Below are positions 14,899-64,000 of a stretch of DNA of 64,000 nucleotides, one piece after another. Position numbers and translations under genes: made by a program. This stretch comes from Marnyiella aurantia (GTDB taxonomy: Bacteria > Bacteroidota > Bacteroidia > Flavobacteriales > Weeksellaceae). Below the pieces are notes generated by a model that ran no database searches, was not told the origin of the DNA, and worked only from the letters and a program-made list of their open reading frames with translations. Numbering within the stretch: the first letter of the stretch is position 1; each line of letters opens with the position of its first letter. Location: NCBI RefSeq assembly GCF_014041915.1, contig NZ_CP059472.1, positions 2,418,001 through 2,482,000 on the forward strand, read 5' to 3'.

Positions 14899-17046
14899 CT
14901 AAATTCTTTCCAGCTCATCTGCACTGATTGTTGTTTTAAAGGTGCCGTAATTAACCGTTATTTTGTTTTTGGAAATTTTCTCTATGGTCCCAACGCTTGT
15001 GCTTCCGGTGATGCGAACCCGTTGTCCCGGTTTCAGCCATAAATCGCGTTCTTCCTTTTTCTTTTCCACAATCTTTTCGTGGGTTTCGGCAATTTTTTCC
15101 TGAATGTCAGCCTTTTTAAGCTGCTGTGTGATCTTGCGTTTTACGACCTGCAGTTTCTTGGTTTCATCCTTATCCGCGCCCAGCTTTCTGAATTTTTCCT
15201 GCTCCAGAATCTTTACAAAATCACGGACAACATCTTTCCGGGATTTCCCCTTCATATAGGCGTCAATAAATCCTTCAATCTTATTTCCGAACTGCAGTTT
15301 GCGGTGCTCTTCTTCATACAGTTTCTGGAAGTTAAACAGTTTCTGCTGCAGCTGCTCGTTCAGCTTCTGCAAATGATCGCGTTTGTCCACCACTGAATCC
15401 TGCTGTTCCGAAAGGTTGGTGCGCAGTTTCTGAACCTCGAATTTTTCCTGCTGAAGTTTAACAATGGTTTTGTCCAGATTAACCACATCTTTTTCAACCT
15501 TCTTCTTGGCAGATCTCAGGATAAACTGTGGGATTTTATTTTTCTCGGCCACCTCAAAGGTAAATGAACTGCCGGCCTGGCCCACTTCTAGTTTATAAAG
15601 TGGTTCCAGACTTTTTTCATCAAAAAGCATCGCCGCATTTTCAGCATTCGGAAGCTGTTCCACTACCAGTTTAATGTTCGTGTAGTGCGTGGTGATGATG
15701 GCAAAGCTTTTCTTCCCGTAAAAATATTCCAGAAAACTCTCAGCCAGGGCACCACCCAGCTCAGGGTCGGATCCCGTACCGAATTCATCAATGAGAAGCA
15801 GTGTGTTGGCGTCTGCTTCCTTTATGATGCCCGACATCTTTTTCAAACGTGAGGAGTAGGTAGACAAATGATTCTCAATAGACTGGTTGTCGCCGATATC
15901 AGTCATTATTTTGTCGAAGAAAAACATCTCCGACTTTGGATGAGCCGGAATAAGTATGCCGCTCTGAATCATCAGCTGCAGCAGACCAACTGTCTTCAGC
16001 GTGATGGATTTTCCGCCAGCATTCGGTCCGGAAATACAAAGGATCCGGTTATGTTCTGTAAGGGTCAGGGTTTGTGAGAATATCTGTTTTCCCTCAGCCT
16101 TATTACTTAAAAAAAGCAACGGGTGATAAGCCTCACGTAGCCGCAGGGTAGGATGGCGGTTTATTTTGGGGAGAATTCCGTTAATCTGCTCAGCGAATTT
16201 GGCTTTGGCGCGGATAAGGTCCAGATCAAAGATATACCGTTGATATTCGCTGAGCTGTGGCTGAAATTCAGCTATTTCCGCTGTCAGGTTCCGAAGGATA
16301 CGGTCTACTTCTTTTTTTTCTTCCTCTTCATTTTCGCGCTGCTTAAAATAATGCTTCAGTACACTTTCCGGCTGAATATAGGTGATAGACCCGGTTTTGG
16401 AAATTCCTAAAACCCGTCCCGGTATCCTTTTTTTAAATCCGGATTTTACCGCCAGCACTCGCTGGTCTTCAATAATGGTCTCGCGGATTTCGTCCAGGAA
16501 ATCACTTTGCCCATGCGCGGTCAGGGCCCGGTTGAAGTTTTCCTGAATGGCTTTTCGGGCAAGCTGTATTTCGTTACGGAGTTCTTTAAGTACAGGGGAA
16601 GCCTCACTTTTTACATCGCCGAAACGGTTAAAAACCTTGTCAATCTTGTCAATGATTTCTTTGCGGAAATCCAGGTCTTTGATTTCAGCGATCAGATGTG
16701 GAAATGTATCTGCGAAATTCGGCAGGAACTTTTGCAGTCGGCCAATTTGGGCTGTGATGTTTTTTATTTTGATAAATGACTTCGCGTCCAGGCGGAAGTT
16801 TTCAATTACCATCAGTTTCAGCTCATCGTCAATATCTTCAAACTCGTTAAAGGGAATGATGTTATGACTTTCAAAGCTAGTAAGAAATTCCGCAGTTTTT
16901 TTAAGGGTAAGTTCCGCCCCGTCTATAGGCATCGGACGGAGTTCCATAATACGGTCCTGCGTCTTGTGTGAGTATGCGAACGGAGTGATTTCGGCTAAAA
17001 GCGCCGGAAATTCCAGTTCATCTAAATCTTCTTGTTGTATCAGCAC
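14899..17046 (-). CDS. mutS2: MutS2-family DNA-binding ATPase lacking the Smr domain
   Basis: The MutS2 architecture is clear: core and clamp, then an ATPase with Walker A 'ISGPNAGGKSITLK', Walker B 'TLLLIDEFGTGSDP' and 'ITTHYTNIK', a long coiled coil, and a C-terminal KOW-like segment. It ends there: the Smr endonuclease domain of Bacillus or Deinococcus MutS2 is absent (715 residues against about 780). MutS2 proteins act on recombination intermediates or stalled ribosomes rather than mismatch repair. The GTG start at 17046 is chosen because the protein aligns from 'LIQQEDLDELEF' and because a -7 element lies 4 nt upstream; the ATG at 17115 would put that promoter inside the gene. Confidence 0.88.
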   Translation of the reverse strand: MLIQQEDLDELEFPALLAEITPFAYSHKTQDRIMELRPMPIDGAELTLKKTAEFLTSFESHNIIPFNEFEDIDDELKLMVIENFRLDAKSFIKIKNITAQIGRLQKFLPNFADTFPHLIAEIKDLDFRKEIIDKIDKVFNRFGDVKSEASPVLKELRNEIQLARKAIQENFNRALTAHGQSDFLDEIRETIIEDQRVLAVKSGFKKRIPGRVLGISKTGSITYIQPESVLKHYFKQRENEEEEKKEVDRILRNLTAEIAEFQPQLSEYQRYIFDLDLIRAKAKFAEQINGILPKINRHPTLRLREAYHPLLFLSNKAEGKQIFSQTLTLTEHNRILCISGPNAGGKSITLKTVGLLQLMIQSGILIPAHPKSEMFFFDKIMTDIGDNQSIENHLSTYSSRLKKMSGIIKEADANTLLLIDEFGTGSDPELGGALAESFLEYFYGKKSFAIITTHYTNIKLVVEQLPNAENAAMLFDEKSLEPLYKLEVGQAGSSFTFEVAEKNKIPQFILRSAKKKVEKDVVNLDKTIVKLQQEKFEVQKLRTNLSEQQDSVVDKRDHLQKLNEQLQQKLFNFQKLYEEEHRKLQFGNKIEGFIDAYMKGKSRKDVVRDFVKILEQEKFRKLGADKDETKKLQVVKRKITQQLKKADIQEKIAETHEKIVEKKKEERDLWLKPGQRVRITGSTSVGTIEKISKNKITVNYGTFKTTISADELERI

Positions 17047-17050
17047 AGTG

Positions 17051-17078
17051 CAAATATAAGTTAAAAGTTGGTAGGCAA
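17051..17078 (-). promoter_or_regulatory. promoter of mutS2, immediately before the start codon
   Basis: Minus-strand TATATTTG (17058 to 17051) with TTG at 17078-17076, 17 nt apart. Only CACT separates it from the GTG, so the transcript should start at or within three bases of the start codon. Confidence 0.6.
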
Positions 17079-20306: not shown

Positions 20307-20424
20307 AAAAATTATTAGTAAAGCGTTAATTAAAAAATTAAATATATATAAATTTGTTATTGATTTTTTCAATCGACTATTCATTTGTGATTTACCGATA
20401 CTGCTTACGATGGTTAATAATTAG

Positions 20425-20432
20425 TAAATTTG
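20425..20432 (+). promoter_or_regulatory. -7 element directly before the YbdG-type channel gene
   Basis: TAAATTTG is followed by only five bases before the ATG at 20438, predicting a leaderless or nearly leaderless transcript. No good -33 TTG is visible. Confidence 0.5.
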
Positions 20433-20437
20433 CGTTA

Positions 20438-21694
20438 ATGAAAGAGGAAATTCAGCAAACCAAGACTTTACTGGCAGATCTGGTTTTGACCATTCACCGG
20501 TTTATCGCGGAAAATATTTCTGACCAGTGGGAGGTGCAGGTGCTCATAAAGTTCCTGATGCTGTTCGGGATCGTATTTACTTTGGATCTTTTGATTAAGA
20601 TCATTCTGCTTCCCATCTTTTCCAGTTACCGCGACGGGGAAAAATATCCCTTCTTCAAAGCGGTGCACACTTCCGGAATTACGCGCTCCGTAGCTAATAT
20701 CATTGCGCTCCTGCTTGGTAACATTCTTTTCACGGCCTTTTTCAGCGTTTATCATAAGGAAACCTTCAGTATACTGCATAGGGTGTATAACGTGGTTGCC
20801 ATTGTGGCAGTTGCCAGAATGGGCCTGCGCGCACTGAAGGCTGTAGAGAATTACTTTTTCTATAAAAAGGATTATTATAAGATTGTCGCGCTTAAAGCCA
20901 TTTCCGAAACCCTTAAAACAATAGGTATTTTCATCTTCATAGTGGTGCTGATTTCGGTGATCTTCGGAATACAGGGAACGACCATTTTGGGAAGTCTGGG
21001 GGCAATTACGGCGGTCCTGGTGCTGGTTTTCCGTGATACGATACTCGGATTTATGACCAGTTTGCACGTAGCAACCTCCAAAAACCTTAAGGTGGGCGAC
21101 TGGATCGGTATCCCAAAATACAATCTGGAAGGCACTATTGAAGAGATCAACTTGCTAACGACTAAGATCGAGAATTTCGATAAGACCAAATCTACCATAC
21201 CCACCTACGACTTGCTTTCCACTGAAATCAAGAACATGCAGGTGATGTCCGAAAGTAATACCAGGCGTATCAAGCGGTCCATCAGCTTCAATATAAAGTC
21301 GTTCAGGTTCCTGAGTCCGGAAGATATTGAAAAGTTCTCCAAAATAAATTTAGTGGCAGATTACCTTAAACTGAAAAAAGAAGAAATTGCCGCCGAACGT
21401 GCAGGTCTGCAGAATTCCGATCTTCTTATAAACGGCCGTCAGCTTACCAATATTGGGGTCTTCAGGGAATATACTTTCAATTACTTAAAAAACAGTGCGC
21501 ATATAGATCAGGAAGGTACTCTGATGGTTCGGCAGCTCGAAAATACGCCGCAGGGTCTGCCTCTTGAGATCTATTGCTTCACTAATAATTCGGTGTGGAC
21601 CAATTACGAAGAGATTCAGTCTGATATTTTTGACCATCTGCTTGTAGCTTCCCGCGAATTTGACCTGGAAGTAATGCAGTTTAACAAAATTTAA
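20438..21694 (+). CDS. ybdG: YbdG-type mechanosensitive ion channel
   Basis: This 418-residue protein follows E. coli YbdG along its length: four to five membrane helices, the pore-lining 'GSLGAITAVLVLVFRDTILGF' region in two halves, the MscS beta domain ('KVGDWIGIPKY'), and C-terminal YbdG hallmarks 'RRIKRSIS', 'LTNIGVFREY' and 'GLPLEIYCFTNN'. These inner-membrane channels give a mild osmotic-shock response. The ATG at 20438 is chosen because it follows a -7 element and because residues encoded from 20354 are not family-like. It is the first gene of a seven-gene operon. Confidence 0.88.
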   Translation: MKEEIQQTKTLLADLVLTIHRFIAENISDQWEVQVLIKFLMLFGIVFTLDLLIKIILLPIFSSYRDGEKYPFFKAVHTSGITRSVANIIALLLGNILFTAFFSVYHKETFSILHRVYNVVAIVAVARMGLRALKAVENYFFYKKDYYKIVALKAISETLKTIGIFIFIVVLISVIFGIQGTTILGSLGAITAVLVLVFRDTILGFMTSLHVATSKNLKVGDWIGIPKYNLEGTIEEINLLTTKIENFDKTKSTIPTYDLLSTEIKNMQVMSESNTRRIKRSISFNIKSFRFLSPEDIEKFSKINLVADYLKLKKEEIAAERAGLQNSDLLINGRQLTNIGVFREYTFNYLKNSAHIDQEGTLMVRQLENTPQGLPLEIYCFTNNSVWTNYEEIQSDIFDHLLVASREFDLEVMQFNKI

Positions 21695-28834: not shown

Positions 28835-29944
28835 ATGAAAATCGGAATATTGGGTGGCGGACAGCTGGGACGGATGTTAATTCAGGAGGGTCTGAAGTAT
28901 GATGATGAGTGGTTTACCCTGGATCCTGCTGCAGATGCGCCATGCAGTTCTATTTCGCATTTCACGCAGGGCAGGTTTGATGAATATGAAACGGTATTCA
29001 ATTTCGGCAAAGGAAAAGATGTAGTTTCAATTGAAATCGAGCATGTTGATGTTGATGCACTTTTTGAACTGAAAGCTTCCGGGATCAGAGTATGCCCGAG
29101 CCCGGAAATAATTCAGGTCATTCAGCAGAAAATATTGCAGAAGAAATTCTACAAAAAACATGGTATTCCCAGCCCGCAATTTCAGATAATCCAGAATAAG
29201 TCTGAAGCAGACTTTCCGCTGCCGTTCGTGCAGAAGATGAATACAGGTGGTTACGACGGCAAAGGAGTTCAGGTAATACGAACTGAAGGGGATTTAACCA
29301 AACTCTGGAATGTATCTTCGGTATTGGAGAGCCTTGTTGATATTGAAAAAGAGCTTTCCATCATCGTGGCGATTGGCGAAGACGGCGAAACCAAAACATT
29401 TCCGGTTACCGAAATGGTGGCAGACCCAAAACTGAATCTCCTGGATTTCAATATTTGCCCGGCACATATTTCTGAAGAGGTGGAGAAGCAGATCGCCGAC
29501 ATCACCGCGCAGTTCACCAAAGCCGCCTGCTCAGCCGGTCTTTTTGCAATTGAACTCTTCCTCGATAAGGAAGGAAAGGTATGGGTAAATGAGACTGCGC
29601 CCAGGCTGCATAATTCCGGTCACCAGACGCAGGAAGGAAATGCCAACTCGCAATTTGAGCAGTTGTGCAGGATCCTGAAAAACGTACCACTGGCCGATAC
29701 AGACGCCATGGGTTACTCTGGCATGCTGAATCTTGTAGGCGATGAAAACCATTCCGGTAAGGTAATGTATGAAGGTTTGGAAGAGGTGATGAAACTGCCA
29801 AAGACTTATGTACACCTATACGGAAAAACCAACACGAAACCCGGACGAAAAATGGGTCACATCAATGTATTGGCAGCCAGTCGCGAGGAACTTATGGAAA
29901 AACTGATCCGCATTAAGTCGATGGTGAAGGTTACTTCCGTTTAA
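28835..29944 (+). CDS. purK: 5-(carboxyamino)imidazole ribonucleotide synthase
   Basis: This 369-residue ATP-grasp enzyme carboxylates aminoimidazole ribonucleotide with ATP and bicarbonate in purine synthesis. It opens with 'IGILGGGQLGRMLIQEG', has the ATP-grasp 'PLPFVQKMNTGGYDGKGVQVI', and the metal-binding end 'VWVNETAPRLHNSGH'. PurE, which takes its unstable product, lies 1 kb on but is separated by a transporter gene on the opposite strand; the purK stop overlaps that gene by 14 bases. Confidence 0.95.
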   Translation: MKIGILGGGQLGRMLIQEGLKYDDEWFTLDPAADAPCSSISHFTQGRFDEYETVFNFGKGKDVVSIEIEHVDVDALFELKASGIRVCPSPEIIQVIQQKILQKKFYKKHGIPSPQFQIIQNKSEADFPLPFVQKMNTGGYDGKGVQVIRTEGDLTKLWNVSSVLESLVDIEKELSIIVAIGEDGETKTFPVTEMVADPKLNLLDFNICPAHISEEVEKQIADITAQFTKAACSAGLFAIELFLDKEGKVWVNETAPRLHNSGHQTQEGNANSQFEQLCRILKNVPLADTDAMGYSGMLNLVGDENHSGKVMYEGLEEVMKLPKTYVHLYGKTNTKPGRKMGHINVLAASREELMEKLIRIKSMVKVTSV

Positions 29945-30836
29945 GCATTCCGGGACGGTAGTTCATGATGATGACTCCGGTGATGATGAGTATCGCTGCA
30001 ATGATAAACTTCACGGTGATTTCTTCATTCAGCACGAGCCAGCCCAGAAAAATGGCAATACCTGTATTGACGTAGGAAAGCATTGATATTTGCGTGGGCC
30101 GCAGTCTCTTCAGCGCATAATTGAACGCAAAATAAGCAGCCACCGAGCCAAAACAGGCCAGATAAACCGTTGCTGCGATACTTCGGGCCGACCATAAACG
30201 GTAATCACTTTCTTCGGAAAAAAGGAAGGCGATAATCAGCTGCACGATTCCCGCGAAGGCAAACTGGTAAAACAGGTTCAGAAAAAGATTATCGTTGCGG
30301 AACTGAATTTTCTTCGTGTAGATGGTTCCGCCTGCCCAGCCGAATATGGCCAGGAAAAGCAGGATTATGCCGAAAAGATAATCCGGATTTGCAAAATCTG
30401 ACATTCCGTTCCAAAAGATAAACAGCACGCCGCTAAAGCCGAAAAGAATCCCGGCAACCGATCGGAAAGTAAATTTTTCCAGTCCGAAAATTACACTGCA
30501 AAGCAAAACGGCTATGGGTGACATTGAACTTACAAGGGAGGCCAGACTGCTTGAAATATGGGCTTCGGCCACGGTGGTAAGTCCGTTGGCAACGATTAGC
30601 ATCAGCGATGAAAGGGTGATCTGCACCATGAAGTTACGGCGCCCGATCCATTTTAACTGTCGGCGCGCAACCAGGAAAAGAACTAAGATAAGTGCGGCCA
30701 ACAACTGCCGTAATCCGGCTACAAACCAGGGCGGAATGGTCTCCACGCCGATCTTTATGCCCAGGAAGGTGGTTCCCCAAACGATGGCCACCGTAAGTAC
30801 GGCAATGATGAGCCTGATGTCTGCGCTGATTTTCAC
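29931..30836 (-). CDS. EamA/DMT family transporter
   Basis: This 301-residue protein has ten hydrophobic helices in two EamA repeats; 'AIVWGTTFLGIKIGVETIPPW' begins the first in a typical way and 'NEEITVKFIIAAILIITGVIIM' ends the second. It probably exports a small metabolite; the substrate is unknown. The GTG start at 30836 is chosen because TACTTTTG ends 4 nt before it; the ATG at 30860 would place that promoter inside the coding region. It sits between purK and purE on the other strand, convergent with purK and divergent from purE. Confidence 0.82.
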   Translation of the reverse strand: MKISADIRLIIAVLTVAIVWGTTFLGIKIGVETIPPWFVAGLRQLLAALILVLFLVARRQLKWIGRRNFMVQITLSSLMLIVANGLTTVAEAHISSSLASLVSSMSPIAVLLCSVIFGLEKFTFRSVAGILFGFSGVLFIFWNGMSDFANPDYLFGIILLFLAIFGWAGGTIYTKKIQFRNDNLFLNLFYQFAFAGIVQLIIAFLFSEESDYRLWSARSIAATVYLACFGSVAAYFAFNYALKRLRPTQISMLSYVNTGIAIFLGWLVLNEEITVKFIIAAILIITGVIIMNYRPGMLKRK

Positions 30837-30840
30837 GTTG

Positions 30841-30848
30841 CAAAAGTA
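30841..30848 (-). promoter_or_regulatory. -7 element directly before the EamA gene
   Basis: Minus-strand TACTTTTG (30848 to 30841), then CAAC, then GTG. The spacing is the same 4 nt as at mutS2 and lptB. Confidence 0.55.
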
Positions 30849-42030: not shown

Positions 42031-44226
42031 TTATAGCTGCAAAATAATACCGTTTTGTTTTAGCTTTTGAATAGGCTTTGAAAACCAGAACAGTTCAAAA
42101 TCCTCAAATTCCATTTCAAAACTGTTTTTCAGTTCCGCCAATGTTGTCTTGCGTGCATTTTCAATGGAATATTCGCCAATGATCTTCGTCAGCCAGTCCG
42201 CTTTTTCGGTTTCCAGTTCAATTTTAACAATATTGGTTTTCAAATGGAAAGTGAGCTGCGTGAATGAGGTTGAATTTCCTTTTTTTGTTTTGACGAAATA
42301 TTCTGAAACAAAATTTTTGATAGAGAAAACCACCTTTGAATTACCTTTAAATATAAAATTCTCCTCCTGCACAAGGCAGTCGTGAATGTAGTTGGGGGAG
42401 ATGGTTGTGTTCGGAATCTTAAAACCGAACCATTCACGAAGCGGAATGTCGAAATTAATTCCGTGCATGTAGTTGAAAAGTGATTTTTTCAGTCCCGCAC
42501 TGAAACGGCTGTGGTCTATACCTGTACTGTCAGTGAACTGAACATCATTGTTCGCAAACTGTATGTCTGCAATAATAGGCCGTACACCAAATTCTTCTGG
42601 ATTTTGGCCCACCGGCGAATGTGCTGTCATGGCGAACTGATGCCAGAACCCACTCTGTACAATGCCCATTTCAAACAGCTGACGAACCATTTCAAGCGAG
42701 TCAACAGTTTCCTGTATGGTTTGTGTTGGGTAGCCGTACATAAGGTAGGAATGAACCATAATTCCGGCTTCGGTGAAGTTTCGCGTCACCTTCGCTACCT
42801 GTTCTACCGAAACTCCTTTATCTATAAGTTTCAGCAGGCGGTCGCTGGCTACTTCCAAACCTCCGGAAACGGCAATGCAGCCTGAAAGTTTCAGCAGATA
42901 ACAAAGGTCAGAAGTGAAACTTTTCTCAAACCTGATGTTGGTCCACCAGGTTACAACCAGTTTCCGTCTCAGGATTTCCAGCGCTACTTCCCGCATAAGT
43001 GCCGGTGGAGCAGCTTCATCAACAAAATGAAAGCCCGATTCCCCGGTCTCCGAAATAAGGGTTTCCATACGGTCTACCAGGATTTTCGCTGAAACAGGCT
43101 CGTAGGTCTTTATATAATCCAGTGAAATATCGCAGAAGGTACATTTGCCCCAGTAACAGCCGTGTGCCATTGTAAGTTTATTCCACCGCCCGTCACTCCA
43201 CAGGCTGTGCATCGGGTTAGCTACTTCAATGACTGAAATATATCTTTCCAGCAGCAGGTCACTATAGTCAGGTGTGCCGGTAAATGCCATTTTATAATCC
43301 GGGCGCGGCGAGTTATTCAGGTACACCACTTCGCCGTTCCTCATTAAAAATGTCCTTTTAAGTTCCGGTTCAGAATCATGGTTCTCTCCGTAAACCTGGG
43401 CATGAAGCAGCTCAACGGGCAGTTCGCCGTCGTCCAGTGTAATAAAGTCAAAGAATTCAAATACTCTGGCATCTTTCAGTTCGCGGAGTTCAGTATTGGG
43501 GAAGCCGCCACCCATTGCGGTCTTAATATGGGGATAGTATTGTCTGATGAATTTTGCTGCCCGGAATGCCGAATACAGGTTTCCCGGAAACGGCACAGAA
43601 AAGCATACCAGTTTTGGCTTTACGGCTTCGATTTTCTCCTGAAGAATTTTTAAGGTAAAGTGGTCTGTGAAAGTTGGAGCATCCTGCAGCTTCGCATAAA
43701 GTTCATCAAATGAGTTTGCACTTTGTCCGATCCTTTCTGCGTAGCGGCTGAAACCAAAATCAGGGTCAATGTTTTCAACGATATAGTCGGAAAGATCCTC
43801 CAGATAGAGCGTGGCCAGATGTTTCGCTTTGTCCTGTAAACCCATGTTCCCGAAGGCATATTCCAGATCATCCAGCTGATTGAAACGGAACGCCTCCGGC
43901 AGGAAATTCATTGTGCAGATTTGTCTGGCGAGTGTAGGATTGCTGTTTTGAAGAAAAAGAATCACCTGATCGATAGTATTAACATACTCATCGCGCATCG
44001 CAAAAATCCGACTGCTGTTTTCTGAGAGAGCGGATACATCACTAACACCTTCAAACACTTTCGCCAGTCCGTCCTTTGAAAAAAGCTCAAGAATCACCTC
44101 TATACCCAAGTCCATCTGAAATGAGCAGATGTTTTTTGTGTTCAGGAATCCCTTCAGATAGGCTGTGGCGGGGTAAGGCGTGTTCAGCTGGGTAAAAGGG
44201 GGAGTGATTAAGAGAAGATCTTTCAA
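42031..44226 (-). CDS. B12-binding-type radical SAM protein, unknown substrate
   Basis: This 731-residue protein has an N-terminal part with a B12-domain-like Rossmann region (about 205-265, 'KPKLVCFSVPFPGN', 'TAMGGGFPN') and a radical SAM barrel whose iron-sulfur cysteines are Cys357, Cys362 and Cys365 in 'HGCYWGKCTFCD', a CX4CX2C spacing. Further on come 'SGGLEVASDRLL' and 'YLMYGYPTQT'. The C-terminal 150 residues match nothing I know. The TTG at 44226 is chosen because 'KDLLLITPPFTQLNTPYPAT' is the family start and a -7 element lies 12 nt before it. No precursor peptide or partner is visible. Confidence 0.78.
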   Translation of the reverse strand: MKDLLLITPPFTQLNTPYPATAYLKGFLNTKNICSFQMDLGIEVILELFSKDGLAKVFEGVSDVSALSENSSRIFAMRDEYVNTIDQVILFLQNSNPTLARQICTMNFLPEAFRFNQLDDLEYAFGNMGLQDKAKHLATLYLEDLSDYIVENIDPDFGFSRYAERIGQSANSFDELYAKLQDAPTFTDHFTLKILQEKIEAVKPKLVCFSVPFPGNLYSAFRAAKFIRQYYPHIKTAMGGGFPNTELRELKDARVFEFFDFITLDDGELPVELLHAQVYGENHDSEPELKRTFLMRNGEVVYLNNSPRPDYKMAFTGTPDYSDLLLERYISVIEVANPMHSLWSDGRWNKLTMAHGCYWGKCTFCDISLDYIKTYEPVSAKILVDRMETLISETGESGFHFVDEAAPPALMREVALEILRRKLVVTWWTNIRFEKSFTSDLCYLLKLSGCIAVSGGLEVASDRLLKLIDKGVSVEQVAKVTRNFTEAGIMVHSYLMYGYPTQTIQETVDSLEMVRQLFEMGIVQSGFWHQFAMTAHSPVGQNPEEFGVRPIIADIQFANNDVQFTDSTGIDHSRFSAGLKKSLFNYMHGINFDIPLREWFGFKIPNTTISPNYIHDCLVQEENFIFKGNSKVVFSIKNFVSEYFVKTKKGNSTSFTQLTFHLKTNIVKIELETEKADWLTKIIGEYSIENARKTTLAELKNSFEMEFEDFELFWFSKPIQKLKQNGIILQL

Positions 44227-44238
44227 GAATATTTTTTG

Positions 44239-44246
44239 CAAATTTA
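44239..44246 (-). promoter_or_regulatory. -7 element of the radical SAM gene
   Basis: Minus-strand TAAATTTG (44246 to 44239), 12 nt before the TTG start, implying a leader of about 8 nt. Confidence 0.5.
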
Positions 44247-60433: not shown

Positions 60434-60832
60434 TTAATTTTTAAGTTGTTTGGCAAAAGCTACTATATGACCGTCAGGATCAGCCAAGTAAAAGGCACGG
60501 TCACCCCAGTCACGGTCAGCAGGTGCACTTAGAACCTTTGCATTAAGAGCCACAGCATTCTGATATTCAGCTTCAGTATCATCCACATAAAGATAGAGTT
60601 CACAACGTGGAATTCCTGTTCCGCTTGTAGGGTCAGGTGTTTTCCCTTTAAGAATTCTGTTAATGCTGCTGTTGGGCATGAGGCCCAGTGTGAAAACATC
60701 AGAAAGCTGAAATTCCGTCATGCCGGGCACATCCAGCACCGGTTCCAGACCCAAAATTTGCCGGTAGAATTCGCGGCTTATTGCTTGATCAGTTACGTAG
60801 AGGATGGTATGTACTTTCTGAAAGCTTTTCAT
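60434..60832 (-). CDS. VOC family (glyoxalase/bleomycin-resistance-like) protein
   Basis: The 132-residue protein has the VOC beta-alpha-beta3 pattern: 'KVHTILYVTDQAISREFYRQILGLEPV', a middle with 'RCELYLYVDDTEAEY', and the closing 'RAFYLADPDGHIVAFAKQL' that is typical of the family. The ligand is unknown; such proteins may bind drugs or isomerise small substrates. The ATG at 60832 is preferred because residues before it are unlike the family and a -7 element ends 6 nt upstream. Confidence 0.85.
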   Translation of the reverse strand: MKSFQKVHTILYVTDQAISREFYRQILGLEPVLDVPGMTEFQLSDVFTLGLMPNSSINRILKGKTPDPTSGTGIPRCELYLYVDDTEAEYQNAVALNAKVLSAPADRDWGDRAFYLADPDGHIVAFAKQLKN

Positions 60833-60838
60833 CACACT

Positions 60839-60846
60839 CAAATATA
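60839..60846 (-). promoter_or_regulatory. -7 element directly before the VOC gene
   Basis: Minus-strand TATATTTG (60846 to 60839), then six bases, then ATG. It predicts a leader of 0-3 nt. Confidence 0.5.
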
Positions 60847-63522: not shown

Positions 63523-63530
63523 TATATTTG
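63523..63530 (+). promoter_or_regulatory. -7 element directly before lptB
   Basis: TATATTTG, then CTGC, then ATG. The spacing of 4 nt equals that at mutS2 and the EamA gene. Confidence 0.55.
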
Positions 63531-63534
63531 CTGC

Positions 63535-64000
63535 ATGATTTTAAGGGGCGAAAATTTAATTAAGGAGTACGGACCGAAAAAAGTGGTGAAAGGCGTTTCT
63601 GTACAGGTTTCACAGGGCGAAATTGTAGGGCTTCTGGGTCCCAATGGCGCCGGAAAAACAACTTCTTTCTATATGATCGTTGGTCTTGTAAAACCGACCT
63701 CCGGAAAAATCTACCTGGACGATAAGGAAATTACTTCGGATGCCATGTACCGCCGCGCCCAGAAGGGAATTGGCTATCTGGCGCAGGAAGCATCGGTATT
63801 CCGCAAGCTTTCTGTGGAGGAAAATATCTTAGGAGTTCTTCAGCTTACCAAGCTTTCCAAAAGGGAACAGCAGATGAAGTGCGACGAACTTATTGAAGAA
63901 TTCTCACTTCAGCATGTACGCAAAAACCGCGGCGACCTGCTTTCGGGTGGTGAAAGACGGCGTACCGAAATTGCCCGCTGTCTGGCTACAAGCCCTAACT
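63535..64000 (+). CDS. lptB: LPS export ABC transporter ATPase LptB, cut by the window end
   Basis: The first 155 codons are present and the frame is open to the end. It has Walker A 'GPNGAGKTT' (35-43), the Q-loop in '[14 protein letters not shown]' and the signature 'LLSGGERRR' (135-143). LptB powers extraction of lipopolysaccharide from the inner membrane with LptFG. The start at 63535 is fixed by the -7 element 4 nt upstream and by the family start '[12 protein letters not shown]'. The C-terminal third is missing only because the window ends. Confidence 0.93.

Follow-up and report, generated by a model that had tools for sequence, protein, structure and literature searches.

In leaderless mRNAs the start codon is 5'-terminal and is recognised by ribosomes carrying initiator tRNA. 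Within the Bacteroidota, the available portions of the published reports give leaderless mRNAs as 5.5% in F. psychrophilum (PMC9723704), 5' UTRs of under 10 nt as about 3.7% in B. thetaiotaomicron (PMC7366714), and leaders of 10 nt or less as 13% in F. johnsoniae (PMC6847099). Leaderless mRNAs are thus already known in this phylum (3.7-13%), and the genes described below add to a known class. According to the same partial texts, the promoter element lies at -12 to -5 in F. johnsoniae, with 4 or 5 nt separating it from the transcription start (PMC6847099), and likewise at -12 to -5 in F. psychrophilum (PMC9723704); a -33 motif is much less evident than this -7 element (PMC6847099). The Pribnow-based scan of Zheng et al. 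(2011) detected leaderless genes in just one of the 37 Bacteroidetes/Chlorobi genomes, a limit that is acknowledged in the accessible part of that paper (PMC3160421). Loss of the anti-Shine-Dalgarno core from the 16S rRNA has been described, in the parts of two reports at hand, for Chryseobacterium, Elizabethkingia, Riemerella and others (PMC6107228, PMC10783764).

Probable promoter elements directly before five start codons

The window, which is the whole stretch of 64,000 nucleotides analysed (G000:C1:2418001-2482000), belongs to a Weeksellaceae genome of 2,613,493 bases in a single contig. The initial annotation had reported five TAnnTTTG elements at 4, 4, 4, 5 and 6 nt before start codons, and their positions and strands were all confirmed. 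On the forward strand, TATATTTG at 63523-63530 stands 4 nt before the ATG (63535) of lptB (63535-64000, running beyond the window end; 353 codons in L009), and TAAATTTG at 20425-20432 stands 5 nt before the ATG (20438) of ybdG, a YbdG/MscS-type channel gene (20438-21694). On the reverse strand, TATATTTG at 17051-17058 precedes the GTG (17046) of mutS2 (14899-17046) by 4 nt, TACTTTTG at 30841-30848 precedes the GTG (30836) of an EamA transporter gene (29931-30836) by 4 nt, and TATATTTG at 60839-60846 precedes the ATG (60832) of a VOC/glyoxalase gene (60434-60832) by 6 nt. All five elements match TAHHTTTG, the refined -7 consensus of the Bacteroidota sigma-A promoter. The EamA gene is a lineage-specific leaderless candidate and the VOC gene the weakest of the five; the latter also has an in-frame GTG one codon upstream of its ATG, 3 nt from the element. 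At a radical SAM gene, given earlier as a near case, the distance of 12 nt proved correct (TAAATTTG at 44239-44246, reverse strand, TTG at 44226), which predicts a leader of ~7-8 nt and not a leaderless mRNA.

Pfam matches were consistent with the gene names for mutS2 (MutS_V and MSSS), ybdG (MscS-type channel), the EamA gene and the VOC gene (glyoxalase), and gave only an ABC ATPase for lptB. The LptB protein has ~110 extra C-terminal residues (353 aa) in the window genome and near relatives (L009:536-1594; L129-L158), for which no Pfam family was found above E 0.001; the open frames in other Weeksellaceae genera have ~245-280 codons. Its best match among 80 named loci was that of Kaistella chaponensis, a Weeksellaceae member of the Chryseobacterium group (94% identical), which places the genome in that group or close to it. 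MutS2 has 715 aa, with MSSS as a C-terminal match and no Smr domain in the Pfam scan; many of its homologues at class level have open frames near 800 codons.

The promoters would be of the Bacteroidota housekeeping sigma factor type, the -7 element setting the transcription start near the start codon. Since the published distance from element to transcription start in Flavobacterium is 4-5 nt and the distance to the start codon here is 4 nt, +1 would be the first base of the start codon; at 5-6 nt transcription would begin within 1-2 nt of it. Such mRNAs would have no leader or almost none, and a 5'-terminal AUG or GUG would have to be found and recognised directly by ribosomes carrying initiator tRNA.

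Conservation in Weeksellaceae

For each of the five proteins, the sequence upstream of the genes of its relatives was read, with 40 extra pieces picked from other genera. For mutS2, all 60 genomes searched gave a match and 50 were examined, 39 aligned by script and 11, too short or divergent for script alignment, by eye. The layout (element 3-5 nt before the start) was present in 44 of the 50 genomes and, by hand count, in 30 of 32 genera. Among the script-aligned genomes 37 of 39 were positive (32 with GTG at 4 nt, one each with GTG at 5 and at 3 nt, one with ATG at 4 nt and two with ATG at 5 nt); the set read by eye held seven with ATG at 5 nt and four without the layout. The start codon is therefore GTG in 34 of the 44 positive genomes. 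One of the negative genomes keeps the GTG, with TATTTTTA in position.

The lptB layout was found in 40 of 50 genomes (26 at 4, 12 at 5 and 2 at 6 nt) and in 22 of 31 genera, so that the genera lacking the layout number 9 of 31 for lptB and 2 of 32 for mutS2. Four named relatives (K. chaponensis, C. salipaludis, Chryseobacterium sp. JAH and R. anatipestifer) have the lptB element at 4 or 5 nt. At ybdG, 22 of 30 loci have it at 4-6 nt, 20 of these at exactly 5. The EamA layout occurs at 4 nt in 5 of 30 loci and the VOC layout at 6 nt in 2 of 24, in both cases in close relatives only and from lists that include distant paralogues. In five VOC relatives the element stands farther out, 17-18 nt before the aligned start; the lineage of the window has therefore probably lost its VOC leader.

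In the rows of modal spacing the six fixed letters of the element are 100% conserved, while most upstream flanking columns are conserved at 32-76% (the exceptions being -17 T, 100%, and -16 T, 84%, in ybdG); the element is followed by C in 68-85%. Relatives of lptB, mutS2 and ybdG thus keep the element, the spacing and the start while the flanks diverge, which, as judged from promoter geometry, supports the leaderless reading of the initial annotation. Because many relatives keep the layout at three of the five genes, it looks real and selected. Leaderless promoters are in our view very probable at lptB, mutS2 and ybdG and rather probable at the EamA gene; at the VOC gene the chances are slightly below even.

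The alternative that survives best is that the element is a real promoter but a second one, farther upstream, supplies most of the mRNA, which would then be leadered. Three lptB loci (L141, L142 and L146) do have a second element at 13 nt, and in the window another TAAATTTG stands at 20349 before ybdG; in most conserved loci, however, the near element is the only one of its type in a scan to about 80 nt upstream, and we consider this alternative unlikely.

Start codons could also have been misplaced, translation beginning further downstream behind ordinary short leaders. The claim that the starts agree with protein homology held for lptB, mutS2 and ybdG, whose alignments begin at the very first residues, the start codon keeping its position in most loci. 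It was weakly borne out for the EamA gene, because the orthologous EamA genes mostly begin a few codons further in; for the VOC gene the start aligned and the spacing was not conserved, as the relatives with the element at 17-18 nt show. These two genes speak for misplacement. Against it, a start caller that uses coding content only, blind to upstream sequence, picked identical starts for the four complete genes (lptB, cut off at the window end, is absent from these calls), the GTG of mutS2 is kept in most positives, and for PanD, a further candidate at 4 nt, the match to the Pfam model begins at residue 1. Misplaced starts are accordingly a poor explanation for the set, with a small residual probability. 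The same blind calls, together with the homologue alignments, counter the objection that starts were chosen in a circular way.

Excess near start codons in the genome

TAnnTTTG as such is only slightly enriched in the window (70 copies against 57.4 ± 7.2 in shuffles, 2 of 100 shuffles reaching 70), so it is the position before starts that stands out. With lptB excluded, four elements lie at 4-6 nt from the 51 called starts, against a mean of 0.147 and a largest value of 4 in 1000 shuffles.

The count by distance before start codons that the initial annotation had proposed was run on 844 kb, or 32% of the genome, made up of the window plus 39 stretches of 20 kb, with 736 genes that had enough upstream sequence and were called by a model seeing coding content only. 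TAHHTTTG was present at 4-6 nt in 24 of these genes (14 at 4, six at 5 and four at 6 nt) and at 1-3 nt in three, all at 3 nt and none at 1-2 nt. Farther out there were 5 genes at 7-11, 13 at 12-15, 50 at 16-19 and 88 at 20-45 nt. The distribution is bimodal, with one peak at exactly 4 nt, another at 16-19 nt and a trough between them at 7-11 nt, and 24 (13%) of the 180 elements at 4-45 nt lie at 4-6 nt. Controls at 4-6 nt gave 0.78 genes with permuted motifs, one with the reversed motif and a mean of 1.8 (at most 5) in 200 runs with shuffled upstream regions; the claim that five cases were beyond chance is thereby upheld, and the refuting outcome that the initial annotation had named, a lack of excess at 4-6 nt, did not occur in this third of the genome. 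Counts over the whole genome agree, at 80 for TAnnTTTG-N4-ATG and 34 for its reverse. The excess is uneven within the sample: the part that includes the window has 17 such genes of 391 and the second part 7 of 345, and the window is richer than all the remaining stretches together (5 of 52 versus 20 of 685, Fisher p = 0.026).

That T-rich upstream regions yield such motifs near some starts by chance or through motif composition is hardly credible: TAnnTTTG is common and single genes such as the VOC gene could still be chance cases, but for the set this is refuted by the position-specific excess over the permuted, reversed and shuffled controls and by the mutS2 layout conserved across genera.

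A +1 on the start codon would fit both the peak at exactly 4 nt and the scarcity of elements any closer. The trough between the peaks suggests that leaders of ~3-7 nt are avoided and leaders of zero length are not. In the upstream 20 nt, A makes up 25% in leaderless-type genes versus 42% in leadered genes, and an A-rich stretch is seen only in the latter. Base -1 of the 4-nt genes showed no clear pyrimidine (T 4, C 4, G 3, A 3; n = 14). Seven genes at -3 nt, with a TTG start inside the element, were set aside; six were inspected and taken as start-call artefacts or chance.

The other candidates in the sample number 23 at 3-6 nt, and the 20 at 4-6 nt were scanned with Pfam. They include two Y-family polymerases, a bifunctional nuclease, a staphylococcal-type nuclease, MraZ, LptF/LptG, two ABC ATPases, MgtE, PanD, an SMR transporter, a GH3 protein, an aminotransferase, a nitroreductase, a SpoU methylase, a HAD hydrolase, a glycosyltransferase, two DUFs and a weak CopD match. 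DNA-repair and LPS-export genes are conspicuous among the leaderless candidates, and both Y-family DNA polymerase genes are located in one 20-kb stretch (L019:1860-2939 and, on the reverse strand, L019:11075-12223), at 4 and 5 nt.

Other Bacteroidia and comparison with known systems

Outside Weeksellaceae, 55 Bacteroidia genomes matched mutS2 and 28 gave loci, and in five of these loci the start codon follows an element by 4-5 nt, in two cases as GTG at 4 nt; the layout therefore recurs but is not general. Most lptB genes outside the family are without the layout. In six marine Flavobacteriaceae loci (L033, L039, L052, L054, L056 and L060) a CTATTTTTAG block, which is not TAnnTTTG, lies upstream of lptB and is perhaps the promoter of another sigma factor. 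In the neighbourhoods of lptB, elements at 4-6 nt versus 12-45 nt numbered 8 and 75 in Flavobacteriaceae (524 genes; reversed motif 2 and 13), 5 and 18 in Sphingobacteria/Cytophagia (258 genes), 0 and 26 in Bacteroidales (99 genes), and 8 and 7 in four named Weeksellaceae, a small set of 72 genes that includes lptB itself.

In 198 Bacteroidia genomes, TAHHTTTG-N4-ATG and its N17 version were counted, each minus the reversed pattern; 17 nt is a single leader distance that may not be the mode in every family. The window genome is ordinary among the 198 (excess 52 for N4 and 42 for N17). Outliers, picked by eye, were five genomes of family f44 (G180, G141, G214, G245 and G275; N4 excess 131-180, N17 excess 3-17), three of f40 (G137, G177 and G211; 187-270 and 53-63) and one of f49 (121 and 64). 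Families f11, f14 and f64 are among those that also seem to lean leaderless in these counts. The nearest named records of LptB are about 66-70% identical for f44 and 73.5% for f40.

In 420 kb of G180 (54.7% GC, 337 blind-called genes) there were 47 elements at 4-6, 18 at 7-11 and 16 at 12-45 nt. Small samples gave 7, 4 and 5 at these distances for G275 (f44, 68 genes), 10, 5 and 8 for G137 (f40, 55 genes), and 2, 3 and 9 for G146 (f49, 39 genes), which gave no support to f49 as a mostly leaderless family. The usual picture is reversed in f44, probably also in f40 and not clearly in f49; with TAHHTTTG mainly 4-6 nt before starts, leaderless mRNA would seem to be the default in f44 and f40. Five leaderless-type genes of G180 were traced to four f44 relatives. 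The first has an in-frame start 5-8 nt after the element in all four (one alignment uncertain), and for the second and third the distance is 3-4 nt in three of four relatives and 5-8 nt in three (one weakly aligned). No element was present for the fourth gene where the relatives were readable, nor for the fifth in the one relative covering it.

All three 16S tails matched in the window genome (near 1180306, 1437087 and 2064993) read ACATCTCATTT, without the CCTCC anti-Shine-Dalgarno core, as do three further family members (G020, G026 and G001), and the 16S of all four genomes ends in GGCUGGAACAUCUCAUUU. The Weeksellaceae tail is ACAUCUCAUUU instead of ACCUCCUUU. CCUCC is present in the 16S of G163, G103 and G180, of other families (ACCTCC in G180). 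These ends come from 18 genomes queried, of which nine matched and seven gave plausible 16S ends, the nine non-matches being uninformative. With the altered tail, Shine-Dalgarno pairing would be closed to the leadered genes too, and the cell would use two routes free of it. The idea that loss of the core drives leaderless use was unsupported: G180 keeps ACCTCC and has many leaderless-type genes, and the window genome and G020 lack the core yet have ordinary counts.

We give roughly even odds to the wider proposal that leaderless initiation is an evolvable default in Bacteroidota, f44 above all and f40 being mainly leaderless, and selection in Weeksellaceae maintaining the leaderless state of mutS2 (with its retained GTG), lptB and ybdG. 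Such a GTG start without a leader could limit MutS2 to low amounts; we conjecture that it keeps MutS2 translatable when normal 30S initiation fails. The analysis offers a way to list leaderless genes from sequence alone in a phylum that uses Shine-Dalgarno little, where an earlier scan found almost none, and offers mutS2, lptB and ybdG as conserved test genes, and f44 and f40 as lineages where leaderless starts may be the rule. It opens direct questions about what ribosomes need on a bare AUG or GUG and why genes stay leaderless family-wide.

In a literature search that left most subscription journals outside, we found no paper on leaderless mutS2 or on a Bacteroidota lineage with mostly leaderless mRNAs, and no description of a family-wide leaderless mutS2 in a family without the anti-Shine-Dalgarno core. 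Like the Bacteroidota described as having lost that core, the window genome and the three family members have no CCUCC; in the available parts of those reports its loss is not linked to particular leaderless genes (PMC6107228, PMC10783764). Zheng et al. (2011), in the portion accessible, likewise took a -10-type promoter abutting the start codon to indicate leaderless mRNA, but with a different promoter consensus, whereas TAHHTTTG gives an excess here (PMC3160421). Closest are the known Bacteroidota leaderless mRNAs, which, as far as the consulted parts of those papers go, share the phylum, the TAnnTTTG (TAHHTTTG) element, the distance of 4-5 nt and the restriction to a minority of genes. Those cases are mapped 5' ends from other families, whereas ours are inferred from sequence in Weeksellaceae, and what is added here is the gene-by-gene conservation across a family and the retained GTG at mutS2.
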